A stretch of DNA of 21,218 nt from a virus. The notes under the pieces are model-generated. The model did not search any database. It was not told the origin of the DNA and saw only the letters and a list, made by a program, of their open reading frames with translations. A program made the position numbers and the translations under genes. This document shows, one piece after another, positions 4,037 to 14,660 of the stretch. Where the stretch lies: IMG/VR virus record IMGVR_UViG_3300006928_000124, positions 1-21,218 of that record; one strand, given 5' to 3'. Positions within the stretch are counted from its first letter, which is position 1, and every line of letters begins with the position of its first letter.

Positions 4037-4876
4037 TTATTTTATTTCTTGTTCTTCTTCTACTTCAGGCTCATCTCCTAAAATAAAGCCATAGCTATTA
4101 TCGCGTAGAAAAATTCTTATTTCAGATATGGGTCTAGACCAAGCCATATGACTAACAACATTTCCCCAACCATATGCAGATACCATACTTGGAACACCAA
4201 TCAATTCATATTTATGTCTAGGACTATATACATACAAGCTTCCTCCAGAATTTCCAAATATGATAGGTGCGCTGGCAAGATACAAGTCTCTTCCATCTTG
4301 ATCTCTAGAGTACCCTGCGAGAAGTCCCACAGTTGGAAACGGAGGTTTTCCAAGTCCTGCACCAACGGCATATACTGTTTGAAATATCCACGGTCCATCG
4401 TCCTCCCCTTCAGGATAAATATTTGCTACATACGGCATTTGTCTTTCATTGTCATTTATTTCTAAAAGAGCTAAATCTCTACCTTTATCGTATGCCACTA
4501 TATTTGCTAATCTTCCTACTGTACCAACTGCACTACTAAAATTATTATATTCCCATAAATCTATATTTACAGGTCTTCTAGTTTCAATCTCTATTCTTTC
4601 TTTTTTCTCAGAGTCCCACTCTTTTTTTATAATAACATTACTTTGTATTACATGATAGTTAGTAAGAACATAGCTTTTGTATTCTCGATTTTCATCTTGT
4701 TCTGAATAAATCACTGTTCCAGAACCAGACCCTGACCTACCAACTCTTACAAGAACAGTAGGATATAGCATTTCAATGTGTTCTTTTTCTGGAATAGTTC
4801 CTCTATCATTAGCAAAACTTGGTATTGCTATACACATAGAAATAATTAATGCAATCGTCAATATAAATTTATTCAT
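4037..4876 (-). CDS. Exported trypsin-like serine protease
   Basis: This is a 279-aa protein with a classical type I signal peptide: MNK, a hydrophobic core (residues 4-18) and probable cleavage after SFA at 22. The mature part is a chymotrypsin/HtrA-like protease domain with the full triad visible: His75 in LTNYHV, Asp134 in GRDLALLEI, and Ser210 in FGNSGGSLY. No PDZ domain follows; after the protease fold there is only a short acidic tail (EPEVEEEQEIK). The family cleaves peptide bonds by a serine nucleophile. The signal peptide places it in the periplasm or outside the cell, not in the cytoplasm where capsids assemble, so a prohead protease role is unlikely. The ATG at 4876 has AAAGG upstream. 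Possible roles are envelope remodelling, degradation of host surface proteins or fibre maturation, none provable here. Confidence 0.9.
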   Translation of the reverse strand: MNKFILTIALIISMCIAIPSFANDRGTIPEKEHIEMLYPTVLVRVGRSGSGSGTVIYSEQDENREYKSYVLTNYHVIQSNVIIKKEWDSEKKERIEIETRRPVNIDLWEYNNFSSAVGTVGRLANIVAYDKGRDLALLEINDNERQMPYVANIYPEGEDDGPWIFQTVYAVGAGLGKPPFPTVGLLAGYSRDQDGRDLYLASAPIIFGNSGGSLYVYSPRHKYELIGVPSMVSAYGWGNVVSHMAWSRPISEIRIFLRDNSYGFILGDEPEVEEEQEIK

Positions 4877-5237: not shown

Positions 5238-7598
5238 TTAATTTGATCTCATAGTAACAAACCATGCTGATGTAGCATGTGAACCAGAACCATAGGCTAA
5301 TTGTAAAGAACTACCTGAAGCGGAATAAGTTCTAGCTGGAGGGCTATTTTTAACAACAGAAGAAATTGTAGCAGGGGTTCCACCACTACTATGAAACAAA
5401 ACAAGATCCGTAAAAGTATTTGGATCACTTCCTCCAGTAACAACAGCTAAAAGTCCACTCACACCAGCAATAGTTACAGTAGCAATAGTGGTAGCACTTG
5501 TTCCTACAGTAGTTTTTTGATTAGCTATAATTTGTCCAGTATCTTTACCTTGGCATTTAATAAGATCATATTGCGTTCCTAAAGAAGCAGACTCTGGCCC
5601 AACTTTAAGAAACTCTGTGTTACCCGGATCACACCCTATTCCTACAGCATTATTAGCAGCATTAACTTTAAGCATACTGGTATTATCATTACTTTCAACT
5701 CTAAAATCTATGTCTGCTGAACCTTCATTAAATACTGTTTCTGCTGCTGCTAAGTGTATTAAATCTGCAGTAGTTGCATTTCCTATTGTTTTACCATCTG
5801 CTAGAACAAGGTCATCTGATATTGTTAATAATCCAGTAGAGCTAAGAGACATTTTTTCAGCAGCAGCTTCACTAGCCCCTGTTTTAAAACTTAACTTTGT
5901 AGCATTATTACTTGAACTAAAATCTCCTTCAGATACAGCAGCTATACCAGCAGCAACTAATATTGCATCTGTGCCTGTACCTTCATCTGGTGCTTGAAAA
6001 TCAATTTGTCCAATAACATCATCTTGAGCAATGTCTGTTTCACCAGTTTGTAGAGTTAGTACAAATGGGTTATTATCTCCAGTAGCTATGCTTTTTAAGA
6101 ACAAACCATCATCAGGGTCATGTGTTACAGTTACATCTTGGTCATTACCAAAATAAATTATACCTCCGTCTGCAAGAAATAAATCAGACCATTCAGCAGA
6201 TGCTGTACCTAATGAATCTCCATCAGCAGAAGATGGATCAGCAGAACTAGCTGCTTCAGCCCAAGATATATCTGTTCCATCAGAAGTTAATACATAGTTT
6301 GCAGAACCAGCAGCAAGGGCTGTTGGATCACCAGATGCATCACCAATAATAAGTTTACCTCTTGCCAAACCTGCCATCTTAGCAAGAGTTACAGCATTGT
6401 CTTGAATATCAGCAGTTTCAATTGTGTCGTTGGGAAGCAACGGAACTTGACTAAATGTTACTACGCCTGTAGAGGCAATAGTTATTGCATCGGCATCACT
6501 AGCAGAACCTATTGTACCACCATCTTTAATTAAAATGTCATCTACAAATGTAACTATACCAGTAGAGGCTACTGTTATTGCAGTAGCAGCAGAAGCTGAA
6601 CCTATTGTTCCACCATCTTTAATTAAGATGTCATCTTTAAAAGTTACAATACCTCCAGAGGAAACTGTCATAGCATCTGTAGCTGAAGTTACACCGATTG
6701 TACCTCCATCTTTAAATACAATATCATCTGCAACTGTAAGCAAACCAGCAGAACTTAAAGACATTTTTTCAGAAGCAAGTTCACTAGCAGCAGTTTTAAA
6801 ACTTAACTTTGTAGCGTTATTATCTGCTGCAAAATTACCTTCCGATACAGCCTCGATACCAGCAGCAACTAATACAGCATCTGTTCCTGCTCCTTCGTCT
6901 GGTGCTTGAAAGAAAATAGAACCAAGCACATCATTAACTGCAATATCATTGTCTCCTGCTTGAAAAGTAAGAGAAGGTTCTTTACCGTCACCTGTGCCTA
7001 CATGCTTGAGAATAAGTCCATCATCAGGAGCGTGTGTAAGTGTAATTTCTTGATCACTACCAAAATAAATAGCACTATTGTCTGCAAGATAGATATCATT
7101 CCATTCTGCACTAGTAGTACCAATATCCCTTGTTCCACTTCCATCAGGAACAATATTTGAACCTATACTAGTAAGATCTGTAGTTCCTATATATGTTTTA
7201 AGTCTAGAAGCTGCAGTTTTTCTGTTTGTTCCTCCTGCTCCATTATCAATTATAAACAGGTCAGCATCTACAATAGCTTCTCCAATATCTGTACCACCAT
7301 CTATGTCTAAAGCAGTTAAAGGAAACCCTCCAGCAGTTTGAACTAAAGTATTAACTCTAGATAAAGCAGCTTTTCTATTAGTACCTCCAGCACCATCATC
7401 TACAATGATTAAATCAGAAGTAGTTAAATCTGCCCCGATATCTGTAGCACCATCAATATCTAAATCAGCAAGTGGTACACCACCGTCAGGAAATACTGGA
7501 CTTTGAGAAAATGTAACTACACCAGTAGAACTGATAGCAATAGCATCTGTATCAGAAGCAGAACCTATATTACCTGCATCTGGTATTACAATATTTCC
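5238..7598 (-). CDS. Downstream part of tail fibre, continuous in frame after internal UGA
   Basis: From the UGA at 7599-7601 the same frame continues for 786 sense codons to TAA at 5238. For the first 223 codons there is no ATG, GTG or TTG; the first is a GTG at 6929, which lies inside a repeated 145-residue module and is therefore unlikely to be the real start. The sequence is low-Cys, Ala/Gly/Ser/Thr/Asp-rich beta repeats: two LDIDG-TDIG modules, two 145-residue modules, three plus one 31-residue units, then a distinct C-terminal domain (about the last 170 residues) with TTVGTSATTIATVTI and SAWFVTMRSN. This is typical of trimeric marine phage fibres in which the C-terminus binds the host. 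It would be made only by readthrough, or the gene is broken. Confidence 0.7.
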   Translation of the reverse strand, partial: GNIVIPDAGNIGSASDTDAIAISSTGVVTFSQSPVFPDGGVPLADLDIDGATDIGADLTTSDLIIVDDGAGGTNRKAALSRVNTLVQTAGGFPLTALDIDGGTDIGEAIVDADLFIIDNGAGGTNRKTAASRLKTYIGTTDLTSIGSNIVPDGSGTRDIGTTSAEWNDIYLADNSAIYFGSDQEITLTHAPDDGLILKHVGTGDGKEPSLTFQAGDNDIAVNDVLGSIFFQAPDEGAGTDAVLVAAGIEAVSEGNFAADNNATKLSFKTAASELASEKMSLSSAGLLTVADDIVFKDGGTIGVTSATDAMTVSSGGIVTFKDDILIKDGGTIGSASAATAITVASTGIVTFVDDILIKDGGTIGSASDADAITIASTGVVTFSQVPLLPNDTIETADIQDNAVTLAKMAGLARGKLIIGDASGDPTALAAGSANYVLTSDGTDISWAEAASSADPSSADGDSLGTASAEWSDLFLADGGIIYFGNDQDVTVTHDPDDGLFLKSIATGDNNPFVLTLQTGETDIAQDDVIGQIDFQAPDEGTGTDAILVAAGIAAVSEGDFSSSNNATKLSFKTGASEAAAEKMSLSSTGLLTISDDLVLADGKTIGNATTADLIHLAAAETVFNEGSADIDFRVESNDNTSMLKVNAANNAVGIGCDPGNTEFLKVGPESASLGTQYDLIKCQGKDTGQIIANQKTTVGTSATTIATVTIAGVSGLLAVVTGGSDPNTFTDLVLFHSSGGTPATISSVVKNSPPARTYSASGSSLQLAYGSGSHATSAWFVTMRSN
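5781..6215 (-). repeat. 145-codon fibre module, copy 2
   Basis: This unit begins SLGTASAEWSDLFLADG and ends LADGKTIG. It aligns without gaps over its whole 145 residues with copy 1 at 6693-7127. About two thirds of the residues are identical by eye, including FQAPDEG, LVAAGI and NNATKLSFKT. It is an intragenic duplication within the fibre. Confidence 0.9.
6453..6731 (-). repeat. Three tandem 31-codon fibre repeats
   Basis: Three consecutive units of exactly 31 residues share the pattern xDDIxxKDGGTIG, then a Ser/Ala/Thr-rich strand, then GxVTF. A fourth diverged unit (GNIVIPDAGNIGSAS through TGVVTF) starts right at the internal UGA codon (7599-7601) and has the same length if the UGA counts as its first position. 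These are shaft-like beta repeats. Confidence 0.9.
6693..7127 (-). repeat. 145-codon fibre module, copy 1
   Basis: This unit begins DIGTTSAEWNDIYLADN and ends FKDGGTIG. The first 66 of its 145 residues lie upstream of the GTG at 6929. Its full-length gapless match with copy 2 at 5781-6215 shows that the coding frame upstream of 6929 is real. Confidence 0.9.
7185..7475 (-). repeat. Two tandem LDIDG-TDIG modules (51 and 46 codons)
   Basis: Both units share LDIDGxTDIG, a DLxII(V/I)D(D/N)GAGGTNRK core and an xAxSRxxT end. The same motif style recurs in structural proteins of marine phages (from general knowledge). Both lie in the stretch after the UGA that lacks any start codon, which supports translation of that stretch. 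Confidence 0.85.
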
Positions 7599-8537: not shown

Positions 8538-10045
8538 TATCTACGTCCTCCAGTTGTAAATTCTAATTGATATGAATGTAAAGTAAAAGGATTATTAGAA
8601 CTATTATGATTAAGTTTAACAGCAATTAAAAATCCTGATCCCTCAATAGATCTTCTAAATATAGGAGCACCGCTTGATCCATATACTGCATTATTATAAG
8701 TAGAAGAAGAACTACCAAATATTGCTATTCCACCGGGAGAGGTAATATCAAATTTTGCAGGTTGTGCCACCTCTTTATCATCTGAATCATATCTAACCCT
8801 AAGTTCCGCTTCTATAGTTCCTTCAACTTCATAATTTAAAATAACTCTTTGCATAAGCTTTCTAATACCTGTATCTCCAAGAGATAAATCAGGAGAACGA
8901 TATACCGCTATAACATTTGATCCATCAAAGGTATCTCCACTTTCTTGCCTACGTACATATCCATCATATCCTCCTTCAATAATGTACTCTGTATTACTAA
9001 TAAAGCCAGAGTTCATAGCTGAAGGTTTTATTCCTACTAAATCTGAATACTCAAATCCAATACTTCCTTGTGGTGTTCTTTTTAATGTAGCTAGAATACC
9101 ATTACTATTTTCTGTAGTTCCTCCTGTTTTGGGGTAAAACAATCTGTATTGACTTTTTCCTCTTACAATTACAGAACTAATATTATCAAAACCAATATCT
9201 TCAATACGTGCTTGTATGGGCTTAGATACAGTTCCCAATTCTATATCACCAATTCTAGCCGTAGCAGCAATTGTTCTTAACCCATCTGGAGACAGAAATA
9301 AAAGATCTCCTCCTATTTCTTGTACCGAAAAACCATCAGCACAACCTAATGTTCTTGTTACAGGAACTACTTGCCAATCTGCTATGCTTGTACCTGTAAG
9401 CCTATATATTTTATCTTTCCCAAAAATAAATAAAGCATCACGGAATACTTTTAATTCCACAATGCTTGTATCAACTTTTATAGATCCTGCTCCATTTGCA
9501 GCAGTAAAATCATTTTCAAGAAAAGGTGCTGTAAATACAATTTCTTGTGGATTAGTAGACATTCCTCCAAAAAAGATATGATCTCTAAATACAGCTACAG
9601 AAGATGGATCAGCAGGAGCACCAGTACTACTTAGTAAAGTATATGTAGAACCATCATAGGTAGCAGCTTGATTTACATCATCTACCATTACTACTTTTTC
9701 AGCATTAGTAAAATTAAAATTATCAAATTTATAACGACCAGCAGAAGTTCTTGTAGCAATACTAGAAGACCAACCACTTCCTGTGCTAAACTTTAGCAAA
9801 TTACCTGAAGCTGCTAATACTCCGCTATTAAATACTTTAACTCCTAAAACTGCACTTGTACCATTTACTTGATTACTATCAAACTTACTACTTCCTGTAA
9901 GTCGTCTGTACCCACCTTTTATACTTGGTTCAAAGTTTTGAAGAGTTACTGCTGCTCCGGGAGGAATAGAAAAGTCGTCCTTATCTAAAATAAGACCACC
10001 ACCTAAAGAAACTGTAACTGGAGATATACTTGAAGTATCTGGCAT
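8537..10045 (-). CDS. Tail/DNA-stabilisation protein, beta-propeller type (P22 gp10-like candidate)
   Basis: This is a 502-aa soluble protein dominated by short beta-strands. Early residues (SLGGGLILDKDDFSIPPGAA, then QNFEPSIKGGYRRLTG) match the style of phage stabilisation and tail-hub proteins that close the portal channel. Repeated blade-like segments follow: VAVFRDHIFFGG (about 150), LKVFRDALFIFGKDKIYRLTG (about 205), IGGDLLFLSPDGLRTIA (about 245) and IVRGKSQYRLFYP (about 293). The C-terminal 150 residues carry a further beta domain (EAELRVRYDSDDKE). It lies between a small connector-region protein and the fibre, with which it shares a TAATG overlap, so it probably forms the tail hub to which the fibre binds. 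Family assignment rests on motif style and context. Confidence 0.75.
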   Translation of the reverse strand: MPDTSSISPVTVSLGGGLILDKDDFSIPPGAAVTLQNFEPSIKGGYRRLTGSSKFDSNQVNGTSAVLGVKVFNSGVLAASGNLLKFSTGSGWSSSIATRTSAGRYKFDNFNFTNAEKVVMVDDVNQAATYDGSTYTLLSSTGAPADPSSVAVFRDHIFFGGMSTNPQEIVFTAPFLENDFTAANGAGSIKVDTSIVELKVFRDALFIFGKDKIYRLTGTSIADWQVVPVTRTLGCADGFSVQEIGGDLLFLSPDGLRTIAATARIGDIELGTVSKPIQARIEDIGFDNISSVIVRGKSQYRLFYPKTGGTTENSNGILATLKRTPQGSIGFEYSDLVGIKPSAMNSGFISNTEYIIEGGYDGYVRRQESGDTFDGSNVIAVYRSPDLSLGDTGIRKLMQRVILNYEVEGTIEAELRVRYDSDDKEVAQPAKFDITSPGGIAIFGSSSSTYNNAVYGSSGAPIFRRSIEGSGFLIAVKLNHNSSNNPFTLHSYQLEFTTGGRR

Positions 10046-10051
10046 TAAAAT

Positions 10052-10393
10052 TTATCCTGTAACATTTAGTTCTTCTTCAATAAATAATGATACTGTAAGA
10101 TCATCTGCAGCAGAAGCTTGTGCTTTAAAAATATCTCCTGCTTCTAAAATAATATTTGCATCAGAAAGTTGTAGATAGTTATCTGCAGCTACACTAAAAG
10201 TACTAAGTAAATCATACGTAGCACTTGCAGAAGTATCTGTCCATTTTAATGTTATATTAGCTGCACTTGAACCGTCTACATTTGTTACCCATACCTCTTT
10301 TATTCTTGCCGTAAAGTTTGTAGGGCAAGTATATATAGAGGTAAGATTAGTGCTAGATAATGCTGCTGCTGCATTTTTTAATCTTAACGCCAT
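10052..10393 (-). CDS. 113-aa beta-rich virion protein candidate
   Basis: The ATG at 10393 lies inside the 3' end of the Cys-rich gene (10-base overlap) with AAGG upstream. The sequence is mostly alternating strands (LTSIYTCPTNFTARIKEVWV, ANITLKWTD, DLTVSLFIEEELNV) and resembles small jelly-roll or Ig-like sandwich proteins that decorate phage heads or tails. There is one Cys and no signal peptide. It sits directly before the tail-hub candidate. Small beta proteins at this position in short-tailed marine phages are usually virion components. No specific family is recognised. Confidence 0.8.
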   Translation of the reverse strand: MALRLKNAAAALSSTNLTSIYTCPTNFTARIKEVWVTNVDGSSAANITLKWTDTSASATYDLLSTFSVAADNYLQLSDANIILEAGDIFKAQASAADDLTVSLFIEEELNVTG

Positions 10394-10518
10394 TCATTTT
10401 TACCTTCACTACATCCACAAGGGTTTTCAATAGAACATTGACAATTCTCACATGTGCAATTTATACATTTACAATTTTCATTGCCACATTTTGCAACAGC
10501 AGCATTACTATCTTTCAT
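10384..10518 (-). CDS. Metallothionein-like Cys-rich small protein (44 aa)
   Basis: This short gene occupies what would otherwise be an empty 124-base gap. Its ATG at 10518 shares a base with the upstream TAA (TAATG), and its end overlaps the next gene by 10 bases, so it is embedded in the operon. It encodes 44 residues with nine cysteines spaced C-x4-C-x-C-x2-C-x-C-x2-C-x-C-x5-C-x-C (core NCKCINCTCENCQC). The repeated CxC and CxxC pairs, absence of aromatic residues except a Trp near the end, and small size are hallmarks of metallothioneins, which bind Zn, Cu or Cd through thiolates. It lacks the His residues seen in cyanobacterial SmtA-type proteins. Possible roles are metal buffering during infection, metal supply to a virion protein, or a structural metal-binding part. 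Function is inferred from the Cys pattern only. Confidence 0.8.
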   Translation of the reverse strand: MKDSNAAVAKCGNENCKCINCTCENCQCSIENPCGCSEGKNEWR

Positions 10519-11114
10519 TAAGATACAGAAGCACTAAATGGTGTAGCTTCAGTTCCAGAAGCATTAAGCAATCCACTAACCGTATATTGATTTGTAGCAA
10601 TATCGGTCAGTAAAACATAATCACCTATATTTACACCACCAGTAGTCGTACCATCAAGAGTAATAGTATCTGTAGCAGCTAGAGTAGGCCATGAAATAAG
10701 AGAAGCCGTACCACCATCCGTACTATCGTTAGTTACAACTACTGAACCATCTATGGTATCTGTAGCATCTGCAACTTTAATTACGTAGTTAGAGGTATTA
10801 ACTACAGACACAATAAACTTATATTCATCACCAGAACCTGTAGCTGCTGGAAGGGTAAAGGTACAGGCAGCATCACCACCTACTTCACCCATAAGCAAAA
10901 TACGTCCTGCATGTTCTGCTTGAGTAATAGCATCCGTTGCAGTAAGTGTTACAACATCACGAACAAACGACCCTCCTAGAGTAGTTGTTCCTGCTGTAAC
11001 TGTAACGCCACCTGCAGTAACTGTTAAACCGCCTGAAGTTACAGTCATTCCATCTTCAACAAAGACATCTTCAGGTACACGAGATATACCCTGTGTCATT
11101 TTAAAACTTGCCAT
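10518..11114 (-). CDS. 198-aa beta-rich structural protein, paralogue of the next gene upstream
   Basis: The ATG at 11114 has an AAGGAAAGG site. The first 50 residues include GGLTVTAGGVTVTAG, a short beta-helix-like repeat. Residues about 53-198 align along their length with the 161-aa neighbour (shared LLMGEVGGDAA, FTLPAATG, VADATDTIDG, NQYTVSG versus NQYSVSG). Both end in a hydrophobic/Ser strand (FSASVS versus FSATVS). The protein is soluble, without Cys clusters except one Cys. It is probably a head-decoration or tail-surface protein. The extra N-terminal repeat is the main difference between the two paralogues and may add an oligomerisation segment. It is followed with a one-base overlap by the Cys-rich gene. 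Confidence 0.8.
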   Translation of the reverse strand: MASFKMTQGISRVPEDVFVEDGMTVTSGGLTVTAGGVTVTAGTTTLGGSFVRDVVTLTATDAITQAEHAGRILLMGEVGGDAACTFTLPAATGSGDEYKFIVSVVNTSNYVIKVADATDTIDGSVVVTNDSTDGGTASLISWPTLAATDTITLDGTTTGGVNIGDYVLLTDIATNQYTVSGLLNASGTEATPFSASVS

Positions 11115-11181: not shown

Positions 11182-11667
11182 TTAAGATACAGTAGCACTA
11201 AACATAGTTGCAATATTTGAACCTGCTGCACAAGTTACCATACCGCTTACTGAATATTGATTAGAGGCTATATCTATTAACTCAATATAATCACCAATTG
11301 CACCCCCACCGCTAGTTGTGCCATTAAGTGTAATTGTATCCGAAGCAGAAGCTGTTACAAAAGAAGTAGCAGCAGTACCATCTGCATCAGTAATTATAAT
11401 TTGTCCATCTATTGTATCTGTAGCATCTGCTACCTTGATTAAGTAGTTAGATGTGTTAATTACTGAAACTACAAACTTAAATACACTGCCAGTTCCTGTA
11501 GCTGCAGGAAGAGTAAATGTAGCAGCAGCGTCACCACCCACTTCGCCCATAAGAAGCGTTCTTCCTGAATGATCGGCTGTAGTTATTGAAGCCGTTGCAG
11601 TAAGAGTTATAATATCTTGGGTATGCCTGTCAACATTTTCATTTATAAGTCCTGCTAAAATTCCCAT
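11182..11667 (-). CDS. 161-aa beta-rich structural protein, first of a tandem paralogous pair
   Basis: The ATG at 11667 is preceded by AAGGAG. After a short N-terminal helix (MGILAGLINENVDRH) the rest is beta-rich with the motifs LTATASITTADHSG, LLMGEVGGDAAATFTLPAATG and VADATDTIDG. It is clearly homologous to the next gene (198 aa). The GDYIELIDIASNQYSVSG end motif resembles beta-sandwich or beta-helix proteins on phage particles. No enzyme motif is visible. The pair lies between the adaptor region and the tail hub, so surface decoration or tail accessory roles are likely, by context only. Confidence 0.8.
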   Translation of the reverse strand: MGILAGLINENVDRHTQDIITLTATASITTADHSGRTLLMGEVGGDAAATFTLPAATGTGSVFKFVVSVINTSNYLIKVADATDTIDGQIIITDADGTAATSFVTASASDTITLNGTTSGGGAIGDYIELIDIASNQYSVSGMVTCAAGSNIATMFSATVS

Positions 11668-11998: not shown

Positions 11999-12934
11999 TT
12001 AAAAAGATGAAGATGTGGTATATGCAGAATTAGTTGAACGAGGAATATATGTTGAACGCATATAATCATATCTGTTTATCAATAATGTTTGCATAAATTT
12101 TATTCCTTCATTAAATAATGCAAAACTTCTTTCGTATAAAGGGACTTCACTTCTGTATAAATACATATAAGATACTGCCCCATCTGTAATTATATGTTTA
12201 AATCTATCAGGAATAGTTGTTGTATCTCCATGAGCAGATAAATCTGATGTTGGAAATGTATAATAATCAAAGGCCAATGTGTATGCCTTATTCGGATAGG
12301 GAAATAAACCATATCTATCATCTGGAGTACGAAAGACATGTGTAGGTATACTGCCACCATCAAATTGTGTTACAGTATCGTCATCTGAATGAGCAGCAGC
12401 AGTAGTTCCTCCTGCTCCTCTTGTAGCTCCAGTAAAAGTAGTTGAACTAGTTCCTGTATAAGTAATTTCTTCAGTGCCAACAACAATTGTACCAGTAGAG
12501 TCAAATCCTGAAGTAGAGTCTACTGTTATTGTAGTGACAGAATCTGTATGAGATCCATTTAATGCTGTACTAACTACTTCATCTTCTTGATTAATATGCT
12601 TATCTAAATATTCATGGTAATCTAGAACAGATAAATGTTGTGTAGCATTTCCTAATGTATCACTTTTTTGTACTCTAAAAGAAGAGTAATTAACCCATTT
12701 TGTAGAAGTAGGTAATGAGTATCTAGTAATTCCTGCTGTGAGTGTTTTTGAAGCCTCAGAAGCATTAAAAGGCCAAGTAAATTCTCTTTGGTTTATGTAA
12801 CGGATAGCTTGATTTACAGCATTTTTTGCTTGTGTTTGAACACCACGAGAACTACTAAAATCAGATGAGGTTAATTGTACTTCATTCATTTTTGCTAAAA
12901 CATCGTTAGTGTATATTAAAAAAGTGTTTGCCAT
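11999..12934 (-). CDS. Head-to-tail adaptor/connector candidate with inserted beta module
   Basis: This is a 311-aa protein with AGGA before the ATG at 12934. The helical N-terminus (residues 1-55, AKNAVNQAIRYINQREFTWP), a beta middle (SLPTSTKWVNYSSFRVQ) and a helical C-terminal half (PDRFKHIITDGAVSYMYLYR, then ERSFALFNEGIKFMQTLLI) match the layout of podovirus adaptor proteins that join portal and tail. Between about residues 122 and 191 lies a Thr/Ser/Gly-rich insert with VVGTEEITYTGTS and TRGAGGTTAAAHSDDDTV, a beta module I recognise as recurring in many phage virion proteins. The position after capsid and decoration-type genes supports the role. The assignment is by layout and context, not by a proven family match. 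Confidence 0.7.
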   Translation of the reverse strand: MANTFLIYTNDVLAKMNEVQLTSSDFSSSRGVQTQAKNAVNQAIRYINQREFTWPFNASEASKTLTAGITRYSLPTSTKWVNYSSFRVQKSDTLGNATQHLSVLDYHEYLDKHINQEDEVVSTALNGSHTDSVTTITVDSTSGFDSTGTIVVGTEEITYTGTSSTTFTGATRGAGGTTAAAHSDDDTVTQFDGGSIPTHVFRTPDDRYGLFPYPNKAYTLAFDYYTFPTSDLSAHGDTTTIPDRFKHIITDGAVSYMYLYRSEVPLYERSFALFNEGIKFMQTLLINRYDYMRSTYIPRSTNSAYTTSSSF

Positions 12935-13543: not shown

Positions 13544-14617
13544 CTATGCTATATTGTAGATCGCTGTAGCAATTGCCTCTGGACGTAAAATCTTACGACC
13601 ATAAAGGTGCATACCACGCACGATATCAGCAAAGCTATCAGGATCACGATACGCTTCCGTTTTCGTAATCTGGCTTGCGGTGGCTACTGAAGATGAATGT
13701 CCAGCAACAATAACCCCATAATTAGATTTCTGGTTTGCCGTACCACTTGTTCCGGGACCAGTACCTATTGAGGGTAGATTGTTAGAGACAAAAACTTGAA
13801 AGCCGTAAAGATTGTTGAGAACAAGACCGTTGCGTAATGCACCTGATTCACCAAAATCTTGATTTAAAAGACGCGAATCTTCATCCATCAAAACTTCCAT
13901 GAAATGTGGTGACACAACTAACCAACGACCATCTTTATCAACAAACTGAGTGTCTAAAAGACGCGCCATTCTAGCAATAACCATGTTGGGCGAAGCCGTA
14001 GCAGTCGGAAGCGCACTAGCTCCCGGCAACCTAGCAGCAATAGGAATCGAATGATCTCCTGCCGAACTGGTTGTAATATTACCAAAAAAATCTTTCCTCA
14101 CTTTCATTGTAGTCAGCAATTCATCTGTACCAGCAGTAGAAACAGCTTTGGTTCCAGAAACCGTAGTATTAGCGGTACTGGCTACAGAGCTAATAGAAGC
14201 TTGAGCATGCCCCGAAAGGTATCCCAATACTTCCATATCATACTGATCTTTGAGGCGATAACCTGCTCGATCAGATGCTACTGACTGAAAATTCACATGT
14301 GAATGTGCTTCTTCAATGTCATCAACCTTGAAAGCAAAGTAGTTAGCCTGATCTACGACCAAACTAAAATCTTCATCATCAAGATCTTGAGGAGAGATTT
14401 GAGTACCACGAGCATATGATCTGACCGTGATCTCAGGCTCTTTGATAATACGTACTGTATCACCAAAGCTTGCGATATCACCAAAATAGTCGTTATTGCT
14501 GATACCTTCAGCTACAGAACTCTTACGAAAAGCGACCTGTACCTGTTTAGAATAAATAACAGGGCTAAAATTGCCATTAGGCAAATTGTTATACCCTGCC
14601 GCACGTTGAAAAGCCAT
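13544..14617 (-). CDS. Major capsid (coat) protein
   Basis: This is a 357-aa protein starting MAFQRAAGYNNLPNGN at 14617, chosen because AAGGAG lies 6 bases upstream; an in-frame ATG 12 codons earlier has no such site. Landmarks are VIYSKQVQVAFRKSSVAEGI (25-40), GDTVRIIKEPEITVRSY (52-70), DDEDFSLVVDQANYFAFKVDD (80-100) and the C-terminal KILRPEAIATAIYNIA. These match HK97-fold coat proteins of P22/podovirus type, which assemble around a scaffold into the icosahedral shell. The gene sits after the scaffold candidate and has its own promoter and structured leader. Codon and base use looks less AT-rich than its neighbours, fitting high expression. There is no N-terminal delta-domain or adjacent prohead protease. 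Confidence 0.9.
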   Translation of the reverse strand: MAFQRAAGYNNLPNGNFSPVIYSKQVQVAFRKSSVAEGISNNDYFGDIASFGDTVRIIKEPEITVRSYARGTQISPQDLDDEDFSLVVDQANYFAFKVDDIEEAHSHVNFQSVASDRAGYRLKDQYDMEVLGYLSGHAQASISSVASTANTTVSGTKAVSTAGTDELLTTMKVRKDFFGNITTSSAGDHSIPIAARLPGASALPTATASPNMVIARMARLLDTQFVDKDGRWLVVSPHFMEVLMDEDSRLLNQDFGESGALRNGLVLNNLYGFQVFVSNNLPSIGTGPGTSGTANQKSNYGVIVAGHSSSVATASQITKTEAYRDPDSFADIVRGMHLYGRKILRPEAIATAIYNIA

Positions 14618-14642
14618 AATCTTTCTCCTTTTCTCGTAACGA

Positions 14643-14660
14643 GTGAGCAGCAAGGCTCAC
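14643..14660 (-). promoter_or_regulatory. Leader hairpin 3, just upstream of the capsid ribosome-binding site
   Basis: A perfect 6-bp stem (GTGAGC/GCTCAC) with a 6-base loop lies about 15 bases before the capsid ribosome-binding site. It may protect the 5' part of the mRNA or affect translation initiation. Confidence 0.4.

Follow-up and report, generated by a model that had tools for sequence, protein, structure and literature searches.

The cysteine-rich gene and its surroundings

The window analysed here is the whole 21,218-nucleotide stretch of IMG/VR record IMGVR_UViG_3300006928_000124, which its sequence identifies as part (21 kb) of an HMO-2011-like phage. Besides the capsid and adaptor genes it holds a portal-type gene, and a 502-aa protein of the window has its nearest relative in pelagiphage HTVC033P (48%), followed by HMO-2011 (45%). 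A short cysteine-rich open reading frame (hereafter the Cys ORF) lies among the following features.

10052..10393, minus strand: 113-aa gene, downstream of the Cys ORF; predicted beta-sandwich virion-type protein with a cement/virion-protein-like fold (AlphaFold2 pLDDT 86, Foldseek, phrog_1276)
10384..10518, minus strand, stop codon included: Cys ORF, 44 aa with nine cysteines, metallothionein-like (ORF and translation, conserved frame, Cys-specific purifying selection)
10403..10407, minus strand: GAAGG, likely Shine-Dalgarno sequence of the 113-aa gene, inside the Cys ORF (sequence)
10411..10488, minus strand: cysteine core, residues 11-36, C-x4-CxC-x2-CxC-x2-CxC-x5-CxC, common to a wider phage family (alignments; likeness beyond the cysteines by shuffles)
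10516..10520, minus strand: TAATG, stop of the 198-aa gene overlapping the start of the Cys ORF, probably coupling the two (sequence; identical -1 overlap in all relatives keeping the upstream gene)
10518..11114, minus strand: 198-aa gene on the upstream side of the Cys ORF, similar to the 161-aa gene at 11182-11667 (ORF list and alignment)
11999..12934, minus strand: SU10-type adaptor gene (PF24175, E 7.5e-13)
13544..14653, minus strand: HMO-2011-like major capsid protein gene (phrog_267; 72% identity to Roseobacter phage CRP-1, 71% to Puniceispirillum phage HMO-2011)

The 44 codons of the Cys ORF translate to MKDSNAAVAKCGNENCKCINCTCENCQCSIENPCGCSEGKNEWR. Nine residues (20%) are cysteines, arranged in four CxC and two CxxC motifs; there is one Trp, no Phe, Tyr or His, and no signal peptide is apparent in the sequence. 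An earlier note on this DNA had described the length, the nine cysteines with their spacing, the TAATG start and the 10-base overlap with the 113-aa gene, and all of these are present. When the window was shuffled 500 times with its dinucleotide content preserved, a short ORF with at least nine cysteines arose in three shuffles, and in one a short ORF reached the CxC/CxxC motif count of the Cys ORF. Judged on the single sequence, a chance origin is unlikely, though its odds are not negligible; the evolutionary evidence outweighs that of the shuffles and is decisive.

The Cys ORF has no Shine-Dalgarno sequence of its own and starts on the TAATG overlap, hence its translation would be coupled to that of the 198-aa gene by reinitiation. 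The GAAGG of the 113-aa gene sits within the ORF, so that conservation of the SEGKNE tail is confounded.

The earlier note placed the gene between two virion-type genes. This holds for the 113-aa side, where the predicted fold matches phage virion structural proteins, the best PDB match being the trimeric cement protein of Helicobacter phage KHP40; the model of the 198-aa neighbour (pLDDT 52) was too poor for use. No known metalloprotein was found among the neighbours of the Cys ORF in the window, which weighs against both a metallothionein-like and a metal delivery role.

Some other features of the window may be recorded here. The 198-aa and 161-aa genes (10518-11114 and 11182-11667, both minus strand), directly upstream of the Cys ORF, are tandem paralogues with 59% identity over the aligned part, and both are missing in loci L009 and L015-L017. 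Residues ~120-200 of the adaptor form an internal Gly/Thr-rich stretch matching segments of phrog_708, phrog_2885 and phrog_4406, which are baseplate-wedge and virion-protein families; it has the look of an inserted small domain shared with them. At 4037-4876 (minus strand), among late phage genes, a 279-aa protein with a signal-peptide-like start looks by eye like a trypsin-like protease; its sole PHROG match is phrog_11383, a family of unknown role.

Conservation of the frame and of the cysteines

Relatives were taken from IMG/VR via the genes neighbouring the Cys ORF. Of the 45 loci on the tree of the 113-aa protein, 18 carry the ORF, and since these carriers form one clade (SH-aLRT 99), a single gain without loss is indicated. 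The reading frame is intact in 18 of 18 loci, all loci that retain the upstream gene share the start overlap of -1, end overlaps measure -10 or -4, and length variants are exact, in-frame steps of five residues (CENCT-type units). L009 and L015-L017 have lost the 99-, 161- and 198-aa genes, so that the adaptor gene comes to lie right against the Cys ORF; from an internal ATG this ORF still encodes MCNNENCTCENCQYSLGNPCGCSEGKNECH. L014 has the same junction in a locus cut short upstream. The intact frame, constant start overlap and whole-codon length changes bear out the earlier view of a true operon member.

Over four separate pairs, pN/pS of the ORF was 0.36 (Fisher p 1e-4), and it was 0.40 (p 0.0015) when the tail with the ribosome-binding site of the next gene was left out. 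Within residues 1-36 of these pairs, pN/pS was 0.04 at the cysteine codons, with six synonymous and two non-synonymous differences, against 0.66 at the other codons, a value not significantly below 1. The earlier note had named a dN/dS below 1 as a check and had made its proposal depend, for the part open to computation, on conservation of the cysteine pattern and frame in related phages; both were found, with selection concentrated on the cysteine codons. The difference between the two codon classes indicates that selection acts on the thiols, as a metal-thiolate peptide predicts, and spacer residues drift while frame and cysteines stay under selection. Homologues carry 6-10 cysteines, with three C-to-Y losses and one variant with six; together with the unit indels, this varying number fits a capacity-type thiolate peptide.

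It is very improbable that the ORF is non-functional, that is, a spacer or low-complexity repeat with a tail that is kept for the ribosome-binding site of the next gene alone. Such an explanation would agree with the Shine-Dalgarno sequence inside the ORF and with the hairpin or other small genes that relatives hold in the same slot. It does not agree with indels in multiples of three, with a pN/pS below 1 even without the tail, with cysteine codons nearly immune to replacement or with similar peptides in unrelated phages. Moreover, no RNA structure was found over the ORF (z 0.85) and no Rfam match. The Cys ORF is a genuine gene.

A variable slot in the late operon

Outside the Cys clade, the slot is either empty or taken up by a short hairpin, by a 61-aa or 193-aa gene, or by a basic gene (MPLTKKGKK...). 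Because it is occupied otherwise in relatives, the Cys gene is to be regarded as accessory cargo of one clade and not as a core virion-assembly gene; HMO-2011-like phages have here a cargo slot where small accessory genes turn over. The family profile gave no match in the isolates HMO-2011, HTVC033P and CRP-1 in a run without positive control, and this profile did match nine of nine records known to hold a member.

The distribution bears on the idea that the peptide is a small virion component, held by metal clusters or disulfides and made in step with the surrounding virion proteins. Absence from the checked isolates of the same phage group and from most relatives implies that it is dispensable for the particle, and similar peptides are also encoded behind a NifU-like gene, where no identified virion gene is near. 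We therefore consider this role quite improbable, despite the late-gene position in the window and the neck, hub and virion gene neighbours found elsewhere.

In sister phages (L020, L021, L023, L024, L026, L027, L031, L033, L034, L036-L038, L040 and L041) the slot upstream of the 113-aa gene consists of 82-89 bases with a perfect hairpin (GCTTGCTCATC...GATGAGCAAGC-type arms). Its arms match the flanks of the MPLTKKG gene start in L019, L028 and L030, and the hairpin appears to be what a deletion of that gene left behind, retained as a terminator-like element.

A wider family of phage peptides

A scan with the clade alignment revealed one outsider, L115, with the peptide MECDNPECKCKNCTCENCECSTDNPCGEECQ. 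Its ORF starts on TAATG behind one gene, and the neck gene that it overlaps has relatives in T4-like cyanophages. Two pattern scans then gave many tiny Cys ORFs; numerous hits fell in antisense or low-complexity frames and were discarded. The best-defined group, with L412, L377, L115, L375 and L414 among the family members, has the consensus MCNNPECxCENCTCDPCECxxxNPCGCE (alignment A5). Example loci are L412:7245-7355 (minus strand), L414 at ~8722-8834 (minus strand) and L375:5895-5990 (plus strand), with others within L368-L420; peptides of this type form a coherent unannotated family in T4-like marine phages. In isolate S-N03, the small gene preceding the PAAR gene was rejected as a member, as its product is not Cys-rich.

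The front half of the group motif was fixed by the search pattern, while the NPCG back half and the gene contexts were free of this selection. The back halves of the window peptide (TCENCQCSIENPCGC) and of L412 (TCDPCECSSENPCGC) share 11 of 15 residues. With the cysteines held fixed, the non-Cys identity of the window peptide to peptides from NifU, neck and spanin contexts exceeded that of shuffles (p 1e-5 to 1e-4). The window peptide has the MCNNP-type register C-x4-CxC-x2-CxC-x2-CxC-x5-C with NPCG (alignment A5), eight to nine cysteines being largely in register and the L414 type needing a one-residue gap. In contrast to the window peptide, the MCNNP-type peptides have no N-terminal extension such as MKDSNAAVA, and they occur in other phage lineages beside other neighbours. 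We read the two as probably homologous across phage lineages, with the reservation that such short Cys-rich sequences may converge.

Gene contexts were counted as contigs, which within one group may be near-copies and hence are not independent events. In about a dozen, a NifU-like Fe-S scaffold gene (phrog_8429, E 5e-38 for the copy tested) precedes the peptide gene at a distance of 45-53 bases. In ten, the peptide gene overlaps both the gene for a baseplate hub/lysozyme (phrog_430) and that for a PAAR spike tip (phrog_281), and a few further contigs show the hub gene alone. Overlap with a T4-type head-closure Hc2 gene occurs in three (L115, L375, L407). In eleven, a phrog_14802 virion protein gene is followed by MPCNNPNCQCENCTCENCTC, a shorter peptide that lacks the NPCG half. 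Other peptides adjoin an SNase-like gene and once also a glutaredoxin gene. Looser CENC peptides were found next to an SU10-type adaptor (L167), beside a spanin-like gene (weak match, E 0.004) upstream of a terminase (L126 group), beside a weak gp15-like gene (L209) and near GH108 endolysin regions.

Since the family adjoins NifU-like Fe-S scaffold and PAAR spike-tip genes in other phages, the idea of metal handling becomes more specific. The peptide could be a dedicated metallochaperone or assembly factor, supplying one phage product (such as a spike-tip/connector protein or a phage-encoded Fe-S enzyme) with Fe/Zn or an Fe-S cluster, and not buffering metal generally. Members that overlap the PAAR and baseplate hub genes or the head-closure gene, or follow the NifU-like gene, would suit such a factor, and gene overlap suggests production matched to one partner. 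On the other hand, the neighbours vary among phages, the window shows no known metalloprotein beside the gene, and a variable cysteine number with drifting spacers would be odd for docking on one client, which makes a dedicated factor rather unlikely. Given the NifU and PAAR contexts, a delivery role is plausible in other phages, with no client evident in the window.

Comparison with known metal-binding proteins

In size, cysteine content, CxC/CxxC spacing and scarcity of aromatic residues the 44-aa peptide agrees with metallothioneins, and its cysteines are preserved by selection. The description as metallothionein-like given in the earlier note therefore stands. The label refers to the predicted function class, yet by sequence there is no match to a metallothionein family: eleven clade members gave no matches to the curated metallothionein models of Pfam-A and NCBIfam at E up to 10. 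Neither the window peptide, which was rightly called unannotated, nor the wider family is covered by a model in Pfam, PHROGs or NCBIfam. A tblastn search of isolate phages with the 44-aa peptide and the 31-aa L115 peptide gave no match, a result that says little, as low-complexity masking may hide Cys repeats, and a search limited to open-licence papers found no phage metallothionein.

Like the bacterial metallothioneins (SmtA/BmtA of cyanobacteria, PmtA of Pseudomonas), the window peptide is small, Cys-rich, spaced by CxC/CxxC and likely cytosolic; unlike them it is shorter, phage-encoded in a late operon and not matched in Pfam or NCBIfam. A small metallothionein that banks zinc is known from a marine organism, namely BmtA in Synechococcus WH8102 (PMC9337993).

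Two other classes were rejected. A zinc finger or zinc ribbon has four fixed Cys/His ligands, as opposed to the 6-10 cysteines, unit indels and C-to-Y losses among the homologues. A ferredoxin-type 4Fe-4S protein would show CxxCxxC, instead of which CxC and CxxC alternate, and there is no Pfam Fer4 match.

The cysteines might also serve as reducing equivalents instead of metal ligands, making the peptide a thiol/redox buffer or oxidant scavenger. That selection falls on the cysteines and that one relative lies beside a glutaredoxin gene would be in line with this, but the regular CxC/CxxC spacing conserved across phages is needless for a plain thiol pool. We regard this function as improbable; it is not an exclusive one, as metallothioneins buffer redox too.

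Proposed role

A metallothionein-like reading of the Cys peptide is the best supported by the sequence data. In its favour we count 20% cysteine, one aromatic residue and no His, retention of the ORF despite deletion of three upstream genes, and relatives adjoining NifU-like, PAAR, glutaredoxin, head-closure and baseplate-hub genes; against it stand the 6-Cys variant, the C-to-Y losses, the Trp in the window copy and the lack of a curated model match. We propose that this accessory late-operon gene probably encodes a small cytosolic metallothionein-like peptide, a putative Zn/Cu/Fe buffer or metal donor to phage metalloproteins. The peptide would be made late, via translational coupling to the upstream gene, and would owe its fold to thiolate bridges with bound metal. 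By analogy with the nine-cysteine beta domain of vertebrate metallothionein, its nine thiols might take up about three divalent ions. The peptide may then buffer Zn/Cu/Fe freed while the host is dismantled, or hand metal to phage metalloproteins.

More tentatively, and as something we hold possible but not probable, marine tailed phages of several unrelated lineages may share a mobile, mostly viral metallothionein-like family, that of the MCNNP consensus, in late virion, spike and Fe-S assembly operons, where it would control the metal supply to phage metalloproteins and spike tips. A wider phage family with Fe-S and spike-tip neighbours would be a more interesting outcome than a single gene.

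In the open ocean metals are scarce, and phage particles have been suspected as iron carriers (the 'Ferrojan Horse' idea). To our knowledge, phage metal-handling genes have hardly been described. Phages appear to carry their own metallothionein-like putative metal binders, in a family of tiny thiolate peptides that gene callers with a length filter will easily overlook and that has no entry in Pfam, PHROGs or NCBIfam. Such a family, mobile and under selection, would offer a testable route to the metal bound, to virion metal (PAAR spike, connector) and to remodelling of the host metal pool.

Similar peptides in cellular genomes

In cells, the family profile matched 2 of 297 Pelagibacteraceae genomes, and a tighter profile 1 of 385 Alphaproteobacteria, a lower bound since the Pelagibacteraceae peptide escaped it. 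With these counts, a common host source in Alphaproteobacteria is unsupported.

Other phyla carry other CENC peptides. Those of Flavobacteriaceae (MKNxECTCNCDGCKxGNCxNCTCENCSCNNCNC) resemble the window peptide in being tiny, about one third cysteine and built of CxNC repeats, but they have another cysteine register and lie on bacterial chromosomes. Kinship was rejected for the peptide tested, its ungapped likeness being no better than that of shuffles (p 0.96). This 33-aa CENC-repeat peptide is widespread on the chromosomes of Flavobacteriaceae (L238-L355, e.g. L263, L289, L324) and is a probable separate metallothionein-like family.

A peptide from a Pelagibacteraceae MAG, MSCDNPKCNCKNCNCENCSCDGSKDCSCSTSGSNCCCNS (L243), resembles the phage family in its start, CDNPxCxCxNCxCENCxC, but has a different tail, is rare in Pelagibacteraceae and shows weak non-Cys likeness to the window clade (p 0.02). 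Its gene (~5560-5690, minus strand, MSCDNPKCNCKNCNCENCSC...) lies between a metallo-beta-lactamase-like gene and genes that look by eye like cysE/cysK, and it is a possible host metallothionein in a cysteine-synthesis neighbourhood.
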